Origin: Streptomyces sp. NBC_01803
GTDB taxonomy: Bacteria > Actinomycetota > Actinomycetes > Streptomycetales > Streptomycetaceae
Assembly (NCBI RefSeq): GCF_035917415.1
Contig: NZ_CP109073.1
Coordinates: 4,386,501-4,450,500 of the forward strand
Direction: 5' to 3'
DNA: 64,000 nucleotides
Shown here: piece after piece, positions 48,409-56,603 of the stretch
How the letters are laid out: every line of letters starts with the position of its first letter
Position numbering within the stretch: position 1 is the stretch's first letter
The notes under the pieces: model-generated
The model's input: only the letters and a program-made list of their open reading frames with translations
Databases searched by the model: none
Told to the model about the DNA's origin: nothing
Made by a program: the position numbers and the translations under genes

Positions 48409-51123
48409 GTGCCGGATACGCAAATCACGTCCGTCATCCAGCCGCCGATAGCCGCCACGGAGCCCACGGTGAAGTACGTCTACGACTTCACCGAGGGCCA
48501 CAAGGACCTCAAGGACCTGCTGGGCGGCAAAGGCGCCAACCTCGCCGAGATGACCAGGCTCGGCCTGCCCGTACCCCCGGGCTTCACCATCACCACCGAC
48601 GCGTGTCGGGAGTACCTGCGCACCGGGTCCGAGCCGGCCGCCCTGCGTGACGAGGTGAGTGCGCACCTCGCCGCGCTGGAGGAGCGGATGGGCAAGCGGC
48701 TCGGCAAGGGTGCCGACCCGCTGCTGGTCTCGGTCCGCTCCGGAGCGAAGTTCTCCATGCCGGGCATGATGGACACCGTCCTCAACATCGGCCTCACGGA
48801 CGAGTCCGTGGGCGCGCTCGCCACCCAGGCGGGAGACGAGCGCTTCGCCTGGGACTCCTACCGGCGGCTCATCCAGATGTTCGGGAAGACCGTCCTGGGT
48901 ATCGAGGGCGACCTCTTCGAGGACCGTCTGGAGGAGATGCGCAAGACCGCCGGTGTGGCCACCGATGTCGAGCTGACCGCGGGCGAACTCCAGAAGCTCG
49001 TCACGCAGTTCAAGGACATCGTGCGCGATGCCACCGGCCGCGAGTTCCCCCAGGACCCGCGCGAGCAGATGGACTTGGCCATCCACGCCGTCTTCGACTC
49101 GTGGAACGGCGACCGCGCCAAGCTCTACCGCCGCCAGGAGCGCATCGCGCACGACCTGGGCACGGCGGTCAACATCTGCTCCATGGTCTTCGGCAACCTG
49201 GGCCCCGACTCCGGCACCGGCGTCGCGTTCACCCGCGACCCCGCCTCGGGCCACCAGGGCGTGTACGGCGACTACCTCCAGAACGCCCAGGGCGAGGACG
49301 TGGTGGCCGGCATCCGCAACACCGTTCCGCTGGCCGAGCTGGAGCGCCTGGACCCGGCCTCCTACACCGAGCTGATGCGGATCATGCAGGTGCTGGAGAC
49401 CCACTACAAGGACCTGTGCGACATCGAGTTCACCATCGAGCGCGGGACCCTGTGGATGCTCCAGACCCGGGTCGGCAAGCGCACGGCGGCGGCGGCGTTC
49501 CGCATCGCCACGCAGCTCGTCGACCAGGGCCTGATCGACGAGACCGAGGCGCTGCGCCGGGTCACCGGCGGCCAGTTGGCGCACCTGATGTTCCCGCGCT
49601 TCGACGCGGAGGCGAAGGCCGAGCGCCTCGTCACCGGCATCGCGGCCTCCCCCGGCGCGGCCGTGGGCGCGGCCGTCTTCGACTCCGCGACCGCCGTGGC
49701 CAGGGCCGCGGCCGGTGAACGGGTCATCCTGGTACGGCGGGAGACCAACCCCGACGACCTGGACGGCATGATCGCCGCGCAGGGCATCCTTACCTCCCGG
49801 GGCGGCAAGACCTCGCACGCGGCCGTGGTCGCCCGCGGCATGGGCAAGACCTGTGTGTGCGGCGCCGAGGAGCTGCGCGTCGACGCCGCGCGGCGTGAAC
49901 TCACCACCGCCGACGGGACGGTGATCCGCGAGGGCGAGCTGCTGTCGATCGACGGCACCAGCGGCAAGGTCTACCGGGGCGAGGTCCCGGTGGTCCCGTC
50001 GCCCGTGATGGAGTACTTCGAGGGCACCGTCACCGCCGACTCCGACGAGCTGGTCGCGGCCGTGCACCGTTTGATGAACGTGGCGGACGACGCCCGGCGG
50101 ATGACCGTGCGCGCCAACGCCGACACCGCCGAGGACGCGGCCCGGGCCCGCCGCTTCGGCGCCCAGGGGATCGGTCTTTGCCGTACCGAGCACATGTTCC
50201 TGGGCGAACGCCGTGAGCTGGTCGAGCGGTTGATCCTCGCCGAGTCCGACGACGAGCGGGAGGCCGCGCTGGCGTCCCTGCTGCCGTTGCAGAAGGGCGA
50301 CTTCCTCGACCTCTTCGAGGCGATGGACGGCCTGCCGGTCACGGTGCGGCTGCTGGACCCGCCGTTGCACGAGTTCCTGCCCGACCTCACCGAACTGTCG
50401 GTGCGGGTCGCCCTGGAGAAGGACGAGAACGACATCAAGCTGCTGGCCGCCGTGCGCAGGCTGCACGAGCAGAACCCCATGCTGGGGCTGCGCGGCGTAC
50501 GCCTCGGCCTGGTCGTACCCGGTCTCTTCAGCATGCAGGTACGGGCGATCGCCGAGGCCACGGCCGAGCGGCGGCTCGCGGGCGGCACACCGCTGCCGGA
50601 GATCATGATTCCGCTGGTGGGCACCGTCCAGGAGCTGGAGATCGTCCGGGACGAGTCCGAGAACGTCGTCGCGGAGGTCGAGCGCGAACACGGTGTCGAA
50701 CTCACCATCCCCATCGGCACGATGATCGAGCTTCCCCGTGCCGCTCTGACGGCTGGTCAGATAGCCGAGAGCGCGGACTTCTTCTCCTTCGGTACCAACG
50801 ATCTCACCCAGACCGTCTGGGGTTTCTCCCGCGACGACGTGGAGGCGAGCTTCTTCACCGCGTACCTGGAGAAGGGCATCTTCGGGGTCTCTCCGTTCGA
50901 GACCATCGACGCCGATGGCGTCGGCTCCCTGGTCCGGGCCGCCGCGACCGCAGGCCGGGCAACCCGCCCCGACCTCAAGCTCGGCGTCTGCGGCGAGCAC
51001 GGCGGCGACCCGGAGTCGGTGCACTTCTTCCATGGGGTGGGTCTGGACTACGTGTCCTGCTCACCGTTCCGAATCCCCATCGCCCGGCTCGAAGCCGGCC
51101 GGGCGGCAACGGCGGCTTCCTGA
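48409..51123 (+). CDS. ppdK: Pyruvate, phosphate dikinase
   Basis: A 904-aa enzyme interconverting pyruvate, Pi and ATP with PEP, PPi and AMP. The N-terminal ATP-grasp domain begins KYVYDFTEGHKDLKDLLGGK near 21. The swivelling phospho-His domain has GGKTSHAAVVARGMGKTCVC near 465, with the catalytic His. The C-terminal PEP/pyruvate TIM barrel has ARRFGAQGIGLCRTEHMF near 583 and the catalytic Cys in LGVCGEHGGDP near 863. GTG 48409 follows GAGGAG. Its stop is 86 bp from a strong hairpin that is also the attachment site of the integrated element. Confidence 0.97.
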   Translation: MPDTQITSVIQPPIAATEPTVKYVYDFTEGHKDLKDLLGGKGANLAEMTRLGLPVPPGFTITTDACREYLRTGSEPAALRDEVSAHLAALEERMGKRLGKGADPLLVSVRSGAKFSMPGMMDTVLNIGLTDESVGALATQAGDERFAWDSYRRLIQMFGKTVLGIEGDLFEDRLEEMRKTAGVATDVELTAGELQKLVTQFKDIVRDATGREFPQDPREQMDLAIHAVFDSWNGDRAKLYRRQERIAHDLGTAVNICSMVFGNLGPDSGTGVAFTRDPASGHQGVYGDYLQNAQGEDVVAGIRNTVPLAELERLDPASYTELMRIMQVLETHYKDLCDIEFTIERGTLWMLQTRVGKRTAAAAFRIATQLVDQGLIDETEALRRVTGGQLAHLMFPRFDAEAKAERLVTGIAASPGAAVGAAVFDSATAVARAAAGERVILVRRETNPDDLDGMIAAQGILTSRGGKTSHAAVVARGMGKTCVCGAEELRVDAARRELTTADGTVIREGELLSIDGTSGKVYRGEVPVVPSPVMEYFEGTVTADSDELVAAVHRLMNVADDARRMTVRANADTAEDAARARRFGAQGIGLCRTEHMFLGERRELVERLILAESDDEREAALASLLPLQKGDFLDLFEAMDGLPVTVRLLDPPLHEFLPDLTELSVRVALEKDENDIKLLAAVRRLHEQNPMLGLRGVRLGLVVPGLFSMQVRAIAEATAERRLAGGTPLPEIMIPLVGTVQELEIVRDESENVVAEVEREHGVELTIPIGTMIELPRAALTAGQIAESADFFSFGTNDLTQTVWGFSRDDVEASFFTAYLEKGIFGVSPFETIDADGVGSLVRAAATAGRATRPDLKLGVCGEHGGDPESVHFFHGVGLDYVSCSPFRIPIARLEAGRAATAAS

Positions 51124-51209
51124 CCGCCGCCGGGGACCGCTGACGGCTCTCCCCGCTCCCCGGAAACCCTCACCGGCGGAGAGGCCCAGCGGTCCCAGGG
51201 GAAACACCC

Positions 51210-51241
51210 GGGGGCGGCGCCTGTGCGGAGGCGCCGCCCCC
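51210..51241 (+). terminator. ppdK terminator hairpin (12-bp stem)
   Basis: GGGGGCGGCGCC at 51210-51221 pairs perfectly with GGCGCCGCCCCC at 51230-51241 around the 8-nt loop TGTGCGGA. It terminates ppdK, and on the other strand it lies within the 3' end of the ancestral DUF2617 gene. The right arm, loop and half of the left arm form the attachment-site core. Confidence 0.85.
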
Positions 51242-51246
51242 ACCTT
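51215..51246. repeat. attL: 32-bp direct repeat of the integrated element
   Basis: The 32 bp from CGGCGCCTG to CCCCACCTT are identical to 55983-56014 at the other end of the element. The copy here abuts the chromosomal half of the ppdK terminator. An integrase-type pair of GTGCCC motifs lies 93 bp inside. Confidence 0.85.
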
Positions 51247-51338
51247 CTGTGACCTGTGGATGAGCGCCCAACTGGCGGCTGAGCTGCGGGAACTACTCTC
51301 AGTGTTTCCCATGGTTTCGGGTCGTTTTCCGGTACCGT

Positions 51339-51364
51339 GTGCCCTCCTTGTGCCCCGGGGCACA
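51339..51364. repeat. Paired GTGCCC motifs and a palindrome near attL (arm-site candidate)
   Basis: GTGCCC at 51339-51344 and 51350-51355, an 11-bp period, the second inside a perfect 16-bp palindrome TGTGCCCCGGGGCACA at 51349-51364. Same motif pair as beside attR. Confidence 0.5.
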
Positions 51365-51459
51365 CCCCGTCCGCACGCCGGGAAGGTAGGCGTGCGGGCG
51401 GGGGCGCGGGCCATGGTGGATTGCGGCGGTCGATGTTGGTGGCGGCGTCTTGGCGCAGG

Positions 51460-51663
51460 TCACTGCTCGCGCTTATCGGCTTCGCGGAGCCGTGCGGCTT
51501 CCTTGCGTCCCCTGAGTGGGACCTGCCATTCCTTGAAGAGTTTGGTGAGGTAGGGGGCGGATACTCCATAGTCGCGGGCGAGGGCGTTGACGGAGATTTT
51601 CTGGTCCAGGTAGAGCCGGGTGGCTTCGTTCCTGGGGATCGCGGGCATACGCCGCGTGGGCAT
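51460..51663 (-). CDS. Small helix-turn-helix protein
   Basis: A 67-aa basic protein. ISVNALARDYGVSAPYLTKL forms a clear helix-turn-helix with a recognition helix PYLTKLFKEWQV; flanks are Arg/Lys/Glu-rich (MPTRRMPAIPRNEATR, LRGRKEAARLREADKREQ). An AAAGGAAG Shine-Dalgarno supports the ATG at 51663. Its size and place at the end of an integrated element suggest an excisionase-like or copy-control role, but the fold is also close to transposase/resolvase HTH modules. I do not know its family. Confidence 0.72.
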   Translation of the reverse strand: MPTRRMPAIPRNEATRLYLDQKISVNALARDYGVSAPYLTKLFKEWQVPLRGRKEAARLREADKREQ

Positions 51664-51726
51664 ATCGCTTCCTTTGGTTTCTGAGTTCAGGCGGGCCCGT
51701 CGGGGCCCCGGCCGGGCGGGAGTCCG

Positions 51727-52155
51727 TCAGTCGGCCCGTGCTCCTCCGGGTGTCCGGCGGGCTCCCAGTCGGGGCAGGCACCGTGCGGACACGGTCAGAA
51801 CCAGCGCGCCCGCTAAGCGCCCTGCGCGCGTCGTCAGGCGCCGGAGTCTGCGGGCCGGTGGCCGTGCGTGAGCCCCGGGGGGCCGATCACCGGGGCGGGT
51901 GCTGGGGCCGTGTCCGGGGCGCACGGGGTCTACGCGCCAGTGCTGCTGTGCCGTACTGAGGAACTGACTGTGTGTCAGTCCGTGCCGGTAGGTGTGGTCG
52001 AGGGCCCACATGCCCACCGGCTTGGGGTCGTTGTCCACCCAGGGTGAAGCCTCGCCGCACGTCATGCACTCCGCCGCGTACATCCCGGCCGGGGCGCCCT
52101 CGGCCCGTTCTGCGGTGAGCATCCATTCGGCGCCCCTGATGATCGTGTGCGTCAC
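51727..52155 (-). CDS. Small Cys-containing protein of the mobile element (DUF7848-like)
   Basis: A 142-aa protein. The N-terminal 75 residues (THTIIRGAEWMLTAERAEGA, YAAECMTCGEASPW, VGMWALDHTYRHGL) resemble the short DUF7848-type proteins common in streptomycete mobile elements, with a CxxC pair and an interspersed His. The remaining 65 residues are Arg/Ala/Gly-rich and may be a read-through tail. GTG 52155 overlaps the stop of the gene before it as GTGA, so the two are coupled. Role unknown. Confidence 0.62.
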   Translation of the reverse strand: MTHTIIRGAEWMLTAERAEGAPAGMYAAECMTCGEASPWVDNDPKPVGMWALDHTYRHGLTHSQFLSTAQQHWRVDPVRPGHGPSTRPGDRPPGAHARPPARRLRRLTTRAGRLAGALVLTVSARCLPRLGARRTPGGARAD

Positions 52156-52391
52156 TGCCACTCCCCGGCCGTGAAGCGGTAGGGGCGGGTGACGTGCTCC
52201 CGGTAGGCCAGATGCCCGGGGTTCCCCTTCACGTGCCGGGCCGCCCACGCCGTACCGTCCCCGGGGTCCGTGGCGGTCGGCCCGGTCTCCTCGCACACCC
52301 GGCACTGCATCGTGTGGGTGACCGGTTCGGCGTCCGCGCACGGTGTCGGGGCCGATGGTGTCTCACGGAACCGGTATGTCGCGCGGGTCAC
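52152..52391 (-). CDS. DUF7848-like small protein
   Basis: A 79-aa protein reading MTRATYRFRETPSAPTPCAD, then VTHTMQCRVCEETGPTATDP, with a CxxC pair, HVKGNPGHLAYREHVTRPYR and a C-terminal aromatic. Such zinc-ribbon-like proteins are common on actinobacterial plasmids and integrative elements. It lies between two genes with GTGA overlaps on both sides. Function unknown. Confidence 0.72.
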   Translation of the reverse strand: MTRATYRFRETPSAPTPCADAEPVTHTMQCRVCEETGPTATDPGDGTAWAARHVKGNPGHLAYREHVTRPYRFTAGEWQ

Positions 52392-52750
52392 TCCCCGCTC
52401 CCTTCCGCCAGCCGCGCGCCCCGGGACTCCGCAACCCGCAGCGCATCCGACAGGCACTCGGCAAGCCGGGTGGCCGCAAACCGTAACTCCCGTGCGGTCG
52501 CGGCCGGATCGGCGAGCAGTTCGCGGGCGCAGCGCAGCACCTCGGCCCCGGTAGCAAGCTGCGCACCCTCCAACTCATCAGCGAGTCCGGTCAGTTGCTC
52601 GCCCGCGCTGTCCGGCGCGAGGTAGGCCGGACCGCCATCGGTGTCCGGCCACGGCAACAGCCGCGCCCCGCTCCCGGGGTCGGCGGGCCCGTGCCGGGTC
52701 CCCTCTAGTGGGGACCCCCGGTCAATTCTGGTTGACGTAGGCTCCGGCAT
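52388..52750 (-). CDS. Hypothetical protein at the head of the element's small-gene operon
   Basis: A 120-aa protein. The C-terminal two thirds form amphipathic helices (AGEQLTGLADELEGAQLATG, VLRCARELLADPAATAREL, RFAATRLAECLSDALRVAES) and could be a coiled coil or helical bundle. The N-terminal 45 residues are Pro/Gly/Asp-rich. It starts at ATG 52750 and diverges from the XRE regulator gene by 143 bp, so the regulator probably controls this operon. I do not recognise a family. Confidence 0.65.
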   Translation of the reverse strand: MPEPTSTRIDRGSPLEGTRHGPADPGSGARLLPWPDTDGGPAYLAPDSAGEQLTGLADELEGAQLATGAEVLRCARELLADPAATARELRFAATRLAECLSDALRVAESRGARLAEGSGE

Positions 52751-52893
52751 GGCTGCCTGCCTTTCTCAGGTGGTCCAAGCCCCCGGGCCGTCGCCACGGT
52801 CGCGGGGGTCCTGCTTGCCGTGCCCACCGTCCCGCCGGTGGTGACGCCGGCATAGCGGCCCGGTGTCGGCCAACTGTCGGCCACAATGGGGAC

Positions 52894-54072
52894 ATGACCA
52901 GCGTCATTGGGGCCAACATCCGCCGTCTGCGCCAAGATCGGGGCTGGAGTCAGGCACGCCTTGCTCGCGAGACATGCCGCGCGGCAGGCATCCCAGGCGA
53001 CCCGATCGGACGGCAGGAGATCAGCCGTTACGAGACCGGCAAGCGCACCCCCCGTGAATGGCTACCGTTCATCGCTCGGGCGCTGGGCGTGACCGTGAAC
53101 GACCTCAAGGCGCAGCGGGGAAGCACTCAGCTACCCGTTCCGCTTCCTGATCAGGATGACGCGAGAGGCGATGATTACGCGCACGCCATCCGTCGAATGT
53201 CGAGACGACTTATCGTCCTCGATAATGAGATGAACGGCCTTCCGATCGCGGACATGGCTGCACGTGCTTTCAAAGCCGTACATCGCCGCCTTGGCGAAGG
53301 CGCCTACGAACCACGCTATGAGCGGGACATTCGCGCCGCAGCAGCAGAATTGGCGGAAATCGCAGGCTGGGCACTCTTCAACGCGGGAAAATTCAATGAA
53401 TCCCGGCGCTTCAACCAAGAAGCTCTTTTCCTCACGAAGCTCTCTGGGGACCGTTCGACGGAACTACTCATTCTACAGAACATGGGGATGCTCGCCGGAT
53501 GGGTCGGGCGTGCGCGTGAGGAATTTTCCATTGCGCGGTCAGTAATAGATCAGGGCCGTCTGACTCCGCGAGTTGAGGCTATGTTCCGAGCCAGGGAGGC
53601 ACAGGGGCTAGCAGGGCTGGGCCGTAGTTCTGAGGCGGATCATTCCTTCGGACGTGCGCGCTCCCTACTTGAAGACAGTGCCCCGGATGATGCGCCGCGC
53701 TGGGCGTGGTGGATCACTGACAGCGAAATCGATAGACAGCAAGGGCGGGTACTCCATGAAACTGAGCAATGGGGCGCAGCCATCCCGATTCTTCAACGAG
53801 CTATGCAACCGGACTCGGGAACTGTGGGATATCGAAACGTCGCATCCGTCCGGCTGCTCGCCTGCTTGCTGGCGGTGAAGGCGTGGCAAGCGGCAGAAGA
53901 GGAAACGGAAAAGCTCATCCCGGCAGTGAGTGAAATGTCTTCAAACGTGACCCTTCATCTGCTCGCACGGGTGGCCAATAGAGGTGAGGCACTGGACGAT
54001 GCACCCAGTAGCCTCCGCGACGCCCTGCGCCATATCGGGGAAGCGGTAAACGAAGATCCGTACATTCTATGA
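52894..54072 (+). CDS. XRE family regulator with TPR-like C-terminal domain
   Basis: A 392-aa regulator. The N-terminal HTH (IGANIRRLRQDRGWSQARLA, then GRQEISRYETGKRTP) is residues 5-72. The remaining 300 residues are helical TPR-like repeats (ELAEIAGWALFNAGKFNESR, TELLILQNMGMLAGWVGRAR, ARSLLEDSAPDDAPRWAWWI). This architecture occurs in regulators of streptomycete mobile elements and in peptide-sensing regulators. Its GC content is visibly lower than the flanking genes, with many A/T third positions, a mark of horizontal acquisition. It diverges from the small-gene operon and likely controls it. Confidence 0.85.
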   Translation: MTSVIGANIRRLRQDRGWSQARLARETCRAAGIPGDPIGRQEISRYETGKRTPREWLPFIARALGVTVNDLKAQRGSTQLPVPLPDQDDARGDDYAHAIRRMSRRLIVLDNEMNGLPIADMAARAFKAVHRRLGEGAYEPRYERDIRAAAAELAEIAGWALFNAGKFNESRRFNQEALFLTKLSGDRSTELLILQNMGMLAGWVGRAREEFSIARSVIDQGRLTPRVEAMFRAREAQGLAGLGRSSEADHSFGRARSLLEDSAPDDAPRWAWWITDSEIDRQQGRVLHETEQWGAAIPILQRAMQPDSGTVGYRNVASVRLLACLLAVKAWQAAEEETEKLIPAVSEMSSNVTLHLLARVANRGEALDDAPSSLRDALRHIGEAVNEDPYIL

Positions 54073-54437
54073 GAGGCCGCGCAATACAGGTCCCATTCCC
54101 CCGGGAGCGGCGGGTTCGGGGGTGGGTGGTTGGTGGGGTCGTTCATGTCGTCTGGGATTGGCTCGCTGCTGTGGCTGTGGGCTGAGTCCGTCCGGGGGCG
54201 CGCGGGTGTCGGGGCGGGTGTGGGTTGTTGTCACAGGGGGTTGCGGGTACGGCGGTTGGTGAAACTTGGCAGGGCGGGAGGCGGCTCACCCCCGCGTTCC
54301 GCGTTCCCTTCCGCCAGGGATACGGGCCCCCCTACCCGTGACACGGCGTGATGATGGGCGCCCTTTGAACTTGACAGACCCCCGAGCGCCCTCCCCCGCG
54401 TTCCGGACCCCCGACCGTCCGGGGGGCGCCCCCCACC
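54073..54437. other. Non-coding region of the element
   Basis: About 365 bp after the regulator with no gene I can recognise. It contains a G-rich GGTGGGTGGTTGGTGGGG-type run near 54120-54140 and short CACGGCGTGA-type repeats. Together with the strong hairpin that follows it may hold a replication or transfer locus, which is only a suggestion. Confidence 0.4.
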
Positions 54438-54485
54438 CGGCCGTCACGCGGCGTGCCCGTTCTGGGCAACGCCGCGTGACGGCCG
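54438..54485. terminator. 16-bp stem hairpin, terminator of the 264-aa gene
   Basis: CGGCCGTCACGCGGCG at 54438-54453 pairs perfectly with CGCCGCGTGACGGCCG at 54470-54485. The 16-nt loop sits 6 bp beyond the stop of the minus-strand gene at 54491. Confidence 0.8.
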
Positions 54486-54490
54486 TGCGG

Positions 54491-55285
54491 TCAGAAGGTG
54501 AGCGGCCCGATGGCCTCTCCCAGAACGGTGGGCGCGGCAGGGCGGCGGGGGTCGCGCGGTGTGGCTGTGTCGGCCCGGGGTGCGCCGTAGTGCTCCCGCA
54601 TGGACTGGAGCAGCATGCTGGCTGTCTGCATGGCCGCGTCCCGGATGCCGAGCAGCGATTCGGCTGCCCTCGCTCCGCGCGCCGCCGCTGAGCGTTCCTG
54701 GTCGGCGTTCTGGTCGGCGGCGCCGTTGAGCGCGTGCCCGATGATCACCTGCTGGGCCAACTCGATGTCCCGGTCATCGCATCCCCGGGAGCGCAGGTAG
54801 TCCGCGCCCCACTGGGTGACCGCCAGGGCGCCGACGTCGTCCTGTCGCAGGGCCAGACGGCCGAGCGCGGTAACGGGGTCGTCCTCCTTGTCGAGGATCA
54901 TCCGGGCGTTCTCGCGTGCGACGAGTTCCCGCCCCTTGGTGAGCGTGGGCAGTGCGGCCACGATGAACGAGGCGCGGGCCACGGTGGCGTTGGCGTCGAT
55001 CTGGTTGACCTTCTGCTGTGCCTTCTCCTCGGCATCGGTCAGCACGTCGCCCATCATGCGCTTGCGGCCATCCGGGTACAGCGTGTCGTCCCAGCGGAGC
55101 TTCTCCAGCGTGGTGTGGGCCGAGGTGATCAGCGTTCCTACGGTCGAGGCCGTGTTCGTGCCGGTGCGGATCTGCGCGCGGCCGGGGGACGGCAGGGTCC
55201 CGGTGGGGTGTTCGCTGCTGTGGTTGTCGATGGCCGTGCGCAGCGCGGCCAGCATGGTGTTGATCTCGTTCGCGAGCATGTCCAT
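54491..55285 (-). CDS. Hypothetical helical protein of the integrated element
   Basis: A 264-aa, largely helical acidic-basic protein beginning MDMLANEINTMLAALRTAID. Features: Asp/Glu and Arg/Lys heptads from about 65 to 210 (AEEKAQQKVNQIDANATVAR, LVARENARMILDKEDDPVTA), then a Pro/Arg-rich tail. No catalytic motif or membrane segment is visible. It is adjacent to the primase remnant, 18 bp away, and likely belonged to the element's replication or transfer module. I do not recognise a family. Confidence 0.7.
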   Translation of the reverse strand: MDMLANEINTMLAALRTAIDNHSSEHPTGTLPSPGRAQIRTGTNTASTVGTLITSAHTTLEKLRWDDTLYPDGRKRMMGDVLTDAEEKAQQKVNQIDANATVARASFIVAALPTLTKGRELVARENARMILDKEDDPVTALGRLALRQDDVGALAVTQWGADYLRSRGCDDRDIELAQQVIIGHALNGAADQNADQERSAAARGARAAESLLGIRDAAMQTASMLLQSMREHYGAPRADTATPRDPRRPAAPTVLGEAIGPLTF

Positions 55286-55303
55286 GGGGTTGTTCCTCTC
55301 GGT

Positions 55304-55759
55304 TCAGGATGCTGTGTCGCAGCCGGGGTGTGTGGTCTGGCCCGGTTCGGTGACCGTCATCGGCTCCCCGCAGACGGCGCAGGCCGGTGCGCTCTGGCGT
55401 TGGGGCCGCAGTGGGCTGGGTCGCGTCTCAACGCGTCTCAGCGGCTCGCCATCGGGTGTGAGTCGCGTTGAGTCGCGACCCGTGCCGCTGTAAGCGTCAC
55501 CGGGCTGGGCTTTGAAGGTGATGCCCGAGTAGGTGGGCACCTGTCGGCCGTCCGCGCCGCGTGGGCGGGTTCGGCGCACCTGGGGGACGACCGATTGGAG
55601 GTTGCGGCCGAACATCGGCTTGGTGCCCGGCCGGATGCCGCTGTCCTCTGTCCAGGAGCGCCAGGCCGCCCACAACGCGTCCACCGTGATTGCCCGGCCG
55701 GGGCCGGTCTCGCAGTGCTCACGGACGAACGCGGAGGTGGGCGAAGCCGTGTCCGGCAC
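55304..55759 (-). pseudogene. C-terminal fragment of a phage/plasmid primase-helicase
   Basis: The translation from near 55759 reads TASPTSAFVREHCETGPGRA, then ITVDALWAAWRSWTEDSGIR, PGTKPMFGRNLQSVVPQVRR and a Cys pair ACAVCGEPMTV near the end. This is the C-terminal winged-helix region of P4/D5-type phage and plasmid primases found in actinobacterial integrative elements. The primase and helicase domains are missing. Its broken 5' end coincides with the broken 5' end of the integrase on the other strand. Confidence 0.72.
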
Positions 55760-55918
55760 TTCTACGCTTCGGTGCTGATCAAGCACGGGGCGAGCGTGAA
55801 GAAGGTACAGCGGCGCTTGGGCCACGCGAAGCCGTCGATCACCCTCGACCTGTACGTGCACCTCTGGGAGGACGACGAGGACGACACGGCCGAACTCATC
55901 GACAAGATCATCGGCTAG
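55745..55918 (+). pseudogene. C-terminal fragment of a tyrosine-type site-specific integrase
   Basis: Reads VRHFYASVLIKHGASVKKVQ, then RRLGHAKPSITLDLYVHLWE. It carries the RHxxAS (box II), the RLGH histidine and the nucleophile Tyr in TLDLYVHLW, then a short tail ending near the attR core. Everything N-terminal is missing, including the catalytic Arg region of box I. It normally ends 50-100 bp before the attachment site, as here. It cannot be active alone. Confidence 0.85.
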
Positions 55919-55919
55919 T

Positions 55920-55936
55920 GTGCCCTTAAAGTGCCC
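55920..55936. repeat. Paired GTGCCC motifs near attR (arm-site candidate)
   Basis: GTGCCC at 55920-55925 and 55931-55936, an 11-bp period. The left end of the element has the same pair at 51339-51344 and 51350-51355 with the same period and orientation. That is the layout expected for integrase arm-type sites, though a chance match is possible in GC-rich DNA. Confidence 0.45.
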
Positions 55937-55967
55937 TCTGAGCGTCGGTGGGCGCTCATCTACCAGC

Positions 55968-56603
55968 TCAGGGCCAGTGAGTCGGCGCCTGTGCGGAGGC
56001 GCCGCCCCCACCTTTCTGTTCGCCCGGTGGCCCGCTCGGTGGCCCGCTCGTCCGGCCGCCCGCTGTCTCGGGCTCTCTCCCGGGGAGCGGCGCCTCGGCT
56101 TCCTCGCCCGGCACCCGCAGCATGGTGCGGGTCTCCACGATCTGCCCGGCCTGCGGATAGGTGTGCCAGGTGCGCCAGGAGATGACGTCCCCGGTGCGCA
56201 GCACGGCGAGCGCGGAGATCGCGTCCGGCGAGCCCGGGAAGGTGCCGTACAGCGAGGCCGGGTGCGCGGCCAGCTCCGCGCGCAGCCGGGCGGTCCGGAC
56301 GGCGAACTCGCGCCACTCGTGGTGGCGCAGCTCCGAGGTGAACCGGTAGGCCCAGCCGTCGATCTCCTCCGTCACGACGGCGGGCGGGCCGCCGCCGGGT
56401 GACCCCGGGAGGCAGGCGAGCGTCTCGGTCACCGGCCCGGCGAGCACCTGGTGGGAGGCGCCCAGCAAACGGAGTTCGACGGTGACGCCGCCGAGTCCGA
56501 CCGCGGTGACGGCGAGCGCGTCCCGGGCGGGCGTCGTCAGGGAGAACGAGAGCTGGTCGGCGCTCGTGTCGAGGTACGGGGTCGTGAGACGCACCCGGTT
56601 CAC
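55968..56603 (-). CDS. DUF2617 family protein, 3' end re-formed by the integrated element
   Basis: A 211-aa protein of the DUF2617 family (VRLTTPYLDTSADQLSFSLT, VTVELRLLGASHQVLAGPVT, DGWAYRFTSELRHHE, PASLYGTFPGSPDAISAL, ISWRTWHTYPQAGQIVETRT). The start is GTG 56603. The conserved domain ends near residue 174 and is followed by a Gly/Pro-rich tail. The last residues, APTHWP then TGA at 55968, are encoded across attR inside the element. In the reconstructed empty site the reading frame would continue APPPGVSPGTAGPLRR and stop about 50 bp beyond ppdK. Function unknown. Confidence 0.83.
   Translation of the reverse strand: MNRVRLTTPYLDTSADQLSFSLTTPARDALAVTAVGLGGVTVELRLLGASHQVLAGPVTETLACLPGSPGGGPPAVVTEEIDGWAYRFTSELRHHEWREFAVRTARLRAELAAHPASLYGTFPGSPDAISALAVLRTGDVISWRTWHTYPQAGQIVETRTMLRVPGEEAEAPLPGREPETAGGRTSGPPSGPPGEQKGGGGASAQAPTHWP
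55983..56014. repeat. attR: 32-bp direct repeat of the integrated element
   Basis: Identical to attL at 51215-51246. On the minus strand it encodes the last residues of the DUF2617 protein, and the element supplies a new stop codon at 55968. Confidence 0.85.

Follow-up and report, generated by a model that had tools for sequence, protein, structure and literature searches.

Integrative elements of Streptomyces, as far as the accessible parts of two reports go (PMC9513070, PMC3218068), are found mostly in tRNA genes. The AICE sites given in the accessible text of the first comprise 36 tRNA genes, 14 protein genes and one intergenic position (PMC9513070), and the pSLS subfamily is described, in the available part of Ghinet et al., as using sites outside tRNA genes. 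The tRNA stem-loop islands of the Islander set (the sublocations of Williams 2002) resemble the locus presented here in their direct repeats, their end-adjacent integrase and the restoration of their target, and the crossover is thought, in the portions of PMC4383910 and PMC8371274 open to us, to take place in the loop between palindromic arms. For tRNA anticodon stem-loops in particular, the review (PMC8371274, available text) gives the same arms-and-loop geometry that we consider below. The difference lies in the target, which here is the probable intrinsic terminator of a protein gene and not a tRNA or tmRNA gene. PAISt, also a Streptomyces element, has a palindromic target at a gene end, but according to the available part of its description this is a short palindrome of 8 bp ending the coding gene bacA (PMC4057263), whereas the hairpin described here lies downstream of its gene. 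Our searches of the open-access literature turned up no paper in which a terminator hairpin, or ppdK, is identified as an attB.

An insert between repeated copies of a hairpin after ppdK

The stretch of DNA analysed, here called the window, is 64,000 nucleotides long and comes from Streptomyces sp. NBC_01803 (G000). Its pyruvate phosphate dikinase gene ppdK (48409..51123, plus strand; Pfam PEP-utilizers_C, PPDK_N and PEP-utilizers) forms the left flank and lies upstream of the target hairpin, attL (51210..51241, plus strand), in which a perfect 13-bp stem closes on the 6-nt loop GTGCGG. The original prediction had recognised this perfect hairpin, with a stem of 12 bp, one pair shorter than measured. 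Its folding energy is −34.5 kcal/mol (z −4.2), and the hairpin pattern has one match in the window against none in 100 shuffles. The left copy of a 32-bp direct repeat (51215..51246) and the right copy, attR (55983..56014), both on the plus strand and identical as predicted, enclose an insert of 4.77 kb; attR retains 8 bp of stem. Widespread copies outside any element, which the original prediction had named as evidence against an insertion, were not seen: a search of the entire 5.85-Mb genome allowing up to three mismatches gave just the two copies of the repeat, and among 295 Streptomyces genomes its pattern was found in G000 and in one other, G121.

Rejoining the outer flanks yields a single full hairpin, and the ending of the DUF2617 gene on the right flank (55968..56603, minus strand; Pfam DUF2617, start codon inferred), whose tail crosses the right repeat into the insert, changes in the way foreseen, from ...AQAPTHWP with the insert to ...AQAPPPGVSPGTAGPLRR in the rejoined frame. 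In essence, the direct repeats bound the insert and re-form an intact site on rejoining, and the sequence comparisons support an att core that coincides with the hairpin after ppdK. This hairpin has a stable, structurally conserved stem directly after the gene, a feature of intrinsic terminators, and is probably the terminator of ppdK, which may end transcription in one direction or in both. The T-run after the stem is weak in G000, where neither side of the rejoined site has a strong one, and clear in some relatives, for example G120 and G335.

Conservation of the ppdK hairpin

Most Streptomyces loci examined have the same hairpin downstream of ppdK. With the loop left unconstrained, GTGCGG was the loop of the best hairpin after the gene at 29 of 34 loci (top-scoring ppdK matches together with retrieved regions, three of them repeats of the same genome); this is the fair figure, since the invariant loop of our hairpin alignment A3 arises by construction, its rows having been picked by a search for GTGCGG. 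The loop is kept in genomes in which no element was seen as well. In 21 chosen rows, 99.2% of the stem cells pair, and 7 of the 12 stem pairs have compensatory changes in both partners, compared with a mean of 3.5 after shuffling. Pairing together with changes on both sides of the stem argues that the hairpin is kept as a structure. A search of six genomes for similar loops gave counts near those of the reversed control, and the only perfect hairpins in G000 were its two att copies.

Most actinomycete elements use tRNA 3′ ends, according to the accessible part of PMC3218068, and the hairpin could in principle be what is left of a tRNA or other known RNA gene, which would make this an ordinary tRNA-type site. 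ARAGORN, however, found no tRNA or tmRNA in the window, an Rfam scan of 50900–56300 returned no family at the gathering score, and the stem is perfect and terminator-like after ppdK in other species too; we regard an RNA-gene origin as improbable in the extreme.

Gene content and decay of the insert

The G+C content of the insert is 0.678, against 0.722 for the window. Just inside attL lies TGACCTG (51250..51256, plus strand), a candidate integrase arm site that most family members share on the element side of attL. On the minus strand there follow a 67-aa ORF that has the appearance of a small helix-turn-helix protein (51460..51663), two ORFs each with a DUF7848 domain in Pfam (51727..52341 and 52152..52457), and a 120-aa ORF with no Pfam match (52388..52750). 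A 392-aa XRE-type regulator with a G+C content of 0.60 (52894..54072, plus strand; Pfam HTH_31) is followed by a 264-aa ORF with no significant Pfam match (54491..55285, minus strand) and by a sequence that may encode the C-terminal part of a phage or plasmid primase (55307..55750, minus strand), for which Pox_D5 scores 20.3 bits, below the cut-off of 21.4, and which gave no match to phage sequences. This possible primase piece lies upstream of, and on the opposite strand to, a C-terminal fragment of a tyrosine integrase (55751..55918, plus strand), whose 55 aligned residues are 85% identical to residues 356–410 of the intact 413-residue integrase of G159. The integrase fragment adjoins attR, and the motif CAGCTCA (55964..55970, plus strand) occupies the element side of attR, as it does in most family members.

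Among the window ORFs scanned there was no tra gene and no phage structural gene, and none of the three genes expected of an AICE (FtsK-type transfer, replication and integrase) was present in complete form. The exact core had no match among viral contigs, and the insert DNA had a single match to plasmids, covering 2%. To judge from its sequence, the insert is a decayed remnant of an integrative element without a complete integrase, and the simplest reading of the cut integrase is an internal deletion. Decay of this kind, with a partial integrase and retained repeats, is also described for AICEs in the available text of PMC9513070. AICEs share the Streptomyces hosts as well, and FtsK-type genes occur in two related inserts, those of G159 and G067, as FtsK domains; unlike AICEs, the window has no visible tra gene, and one member of the ppdK family is a prophage.

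Related integrases at the same hairpin

Related elements at ppdK, which the original prediction had suggested looking for, are present in other Streptomyces with the same integrase clade, and several of their integrases are open and full-length. In the genus sample of 392 genomes this clade (clade A) occurs in at least 16: G000, G010, G036, G055, G063, G067, G159, G191, G195, G252, G255, G256, G267, G282, G335 and G400. The count comes from comparing the places of ppdK with the places of integrases and is a lower bound, because each integrase search was represented by its best 30 loci; G000 itself is in the ppdK sample and in one integrase sample, and absent from the integrase search centred on G121. 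Fifteen of the 16 lie at the ppdK hairpin, the exception being G282. In 14 genomes of the genus sample an integrase or a fragment lies downstream of ppdK on the same contig and strand, while G256, with broken contigs, was placed by matching an attL after ppdK to an attR after the integrase. Nine clade A integrases are open and full-length, six are fragments or partial (the fragments were put in the clade by similarity, with their position already known) and that of G256 is split over contigs. On the tree the nine full-length members form one side of a branch with support of 100/100. Adding 147 genomes of the order contributed three more, G427, G483 and G448, all at ppdK. One further candidate, G265, was rejected as an occupied site, its integrase match being a short stretch only.

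The inserts are diverse. Where both ends lay on retrieved sequence their sizes ran from 3.9 to 36.6 kb; in G055 the insert is a prophage, encoding capsid, portal and amidase, and the G282 insert has a phage capsid gene. The common module is the integrase with its att site, not the cargo. Several side observations concern these inserts. Those of G335 (L168:3556–5254) and G191 (L170) share genes for a CYTH-domain protein and a radical SAM protein at 93% and 91% identity; a viral contig in IMG/VR (L194:10001–11340) has an integrase and a hairpin junction resembling the one in G055; and in G055 itself a third similar hairpin (C3:8772613–8772634) lies on the same strand 10 kb past the prophage attR, perhaps as part of a tandem second element.

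The sister integrase clade (clade B) is about 53–58% identical to clade A and has, by eye, the same GCAGGTCA motif. It is separate from clade A, with its own fork supported at 89/94 on the full tree, and it differs in its target: in 11 genomes (L143, L144, L146–L152, L156, L157; L212–L222) it lies at the coding 3′ end of a DUF520 gene, which we take to be yajQ. The 330 bases after 11 clade B integrases held no terminator hairpin of at least 8 bp. Relatives of the integrase in plasmid and phage records were all below 60% identity over the integrase, so that a link to the pSLS subfamily is not supported.

Empty sites, flanks and rejoined stems

The right flanks of eight insertions were compared with 35 ppdK loci, and three led to clean insert-free sites starting at the hairpin: the G055 flank matches an empty site in G096 over 1323 bases at 89%, and the G036 and G191 flanks match one in G373 at 78% and 84%. 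The other five had no clean empty-site match among these loci. G137 was rejected as a clean empty site on account of two ppdK-type hairpins 79 bp apart (L120:2050–2170); the pair is possibly the scar of a deleted element, and there too the right-flank match began at the hairpin. Of the empty site expected in relatives, then, the hairpin with clean flanks was found in other species, but an insert-free genome with exactly the flanks of the window, ppdK, hairpin and DUF2617, was not.

The nearest relative found, G121, has a ppdK 96% identical to that of G000 and is the one other genome in which ppdK and DUF2617 occur together. It was rejected as an empty site, the same hairpin being occupied by an insert with different genes and a 21-bp repeat, in which we saw no integrase; neither G000 nor G121 thus shows the site empty. 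Two genes of this insert (L084:7800–11720), a helix-turn-helix regulator and its neighbour, are 34–36% related to a pair in the G010 element, and both pairs presumably resemble those of whiJ type. The proposal that the 3′ end of DUF2617 is part of the target did not hold, since the feature shared across the family is the ppdK hairpin and DUF2617 was seen beside it in no genomes other than G000 and G121. Of 80 named DUF2617 loci, several of which have truncated flanks, not one had ppdK within 10 kb, and in 39 short ppdK loci, each reaching about 1.5 kb past the match, no DUF2617 was seen. We regard the gene as incidental.

Twenty insertions (19 with an integrase, plus G121) were rejoined, with attP reconstructed. 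The rejoined stem is at least as long as those of attL, attR and attP in all 20; its length exceeds that of attR in 16, of attP likewise in 16 and of attL in six. All stems are equal in G335, G036, G191 and G055, so that for these four the comparison does not discriminate. The rejoined stem of G427 has 17 bp against 12 and 4, and that of the inverted G448 has 16 against 11 and 11. Recurrent motifs mark the element sides of the junctions: 18 of 20 have a CAG(G/C/A)T-type motif at the left and 17 of 20 have TGACC at the right, compared with 0 and 1 on the host sides. The patterns were picked after the sequences were seen.

Alternatively, duplicated hairpins could have recombined homologously, or some other route could have brought the insert in, with a repeat that is not an att site; the window does lack a complete integrase, as does, to all appearances, the G121 insert. 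Yet the integrase remnant adjoins the right repeat, intact relatives occupy the same position by the same hairpin in other species, and G000 has the element-side motifs, as does G121 on one side, all of which leaves such an origin with very little probability. We consider it highly probable that an integrative element recombined with the hairpin downstream of ppdK by means of its tyrosine integrase, and that the insert is what remains of it.

Exceptions and a proposed mechanism

Two exceptions bear on how the hairpin may be recognised. The integrase of G282 is 86% identical to that of G159, and the repeats of its element correspond to another hairpin, GGCGGCACCC-CACCAG-GGGTGCCGCC, which follows an FHA-ABC transporter gene and keeps the stem while its loop differs. 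This hairpin is native there, being found at 21 of 24 loci (20 of 23 without G282); the arm GGCGGCACCC is present in 19 of the 21 loci bearing it, and the loops vary. In G448, a 15.6-kb element lies inverted at the ppdK hairpin, so that the integrase adjoins ppdK and the loop is reversed in both copies. The loop swap of G282 and the inversion of G448 suggest that the stem probably consists of paired recombinase core sites with the loop as overlap, as in tRNA stem-loops. Additionally, most of the left arm is often missing from attR, which would place the crossover in the loop or the right arm and have the element supply the right half of ppdK's hairpin. The right arms of attL and attR are equal even at host-specific positions, for example in G010 and G483, and attP was seemingly already matched to its host. 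This observation, like the retention of the loop in genomes that have no element, sits awkwardly with the model.

In the proposed mechanism, a tyrosine integrase would recombine the element with the hairpin after ppdK, which would be the intrinsic terminator of that gene. The two stem arms would serve as binding sites for integrase protomers, and strands would be exchanged in the loop, an overlap that attP and attB need to have in common. With a copy of the loop and right arm in attP, integration would leave attL, next to ppdK, as a complete hairpin and attR, at the opposite end, as an incomplete one. In the window, a later internal deletion would have taken most of the integrase.

The integrase might instead read a conserved sequence after ppdK, the palindrome being incidental. 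The inner stem and loop are well conserved, which makes sequence and structure hard to separate, and the identity of the att copies is lopsided, greater in the loop and right arm than in the left arm, as such reading would have it. Against this, G282 uses the terminator of a different gene with which the arms are shared and the loop is not, and G448 inserted the opposite way at the same hairpin; we therefore consider it unlikely that sequence alone is read. At somewhat less than even confidence, we suggest that tyrosine integrases may use intrinsic terminator hairpins as a general kind of target, on a par with tRNA stem-loops, with arms as paired core sites and loop as overlap, such that a loop change in attP alone would move an integrase to another terminator and the loop alone would set orientation.

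Implications for Streptomyces elements

From the genomes compared, the ppdK hairpin is evidently a landing site for related phages and islands, much as tRNA genes are for many others. A simple reason can be offered for why some elements land between genes, namely that a terminator has the geometry of recombinase core sites. Landing at a terminator and restoring its hairpin could cost the host little. Under the model of arms versus loop, targets would be predictable from the integrase sequence, and the loop swap of G282 and the inversion of G448 make this model directly testable. Finally, because the ppdK hairpin is present in most Streptomyces loci examined, the intact integrases might serve as integration tools.
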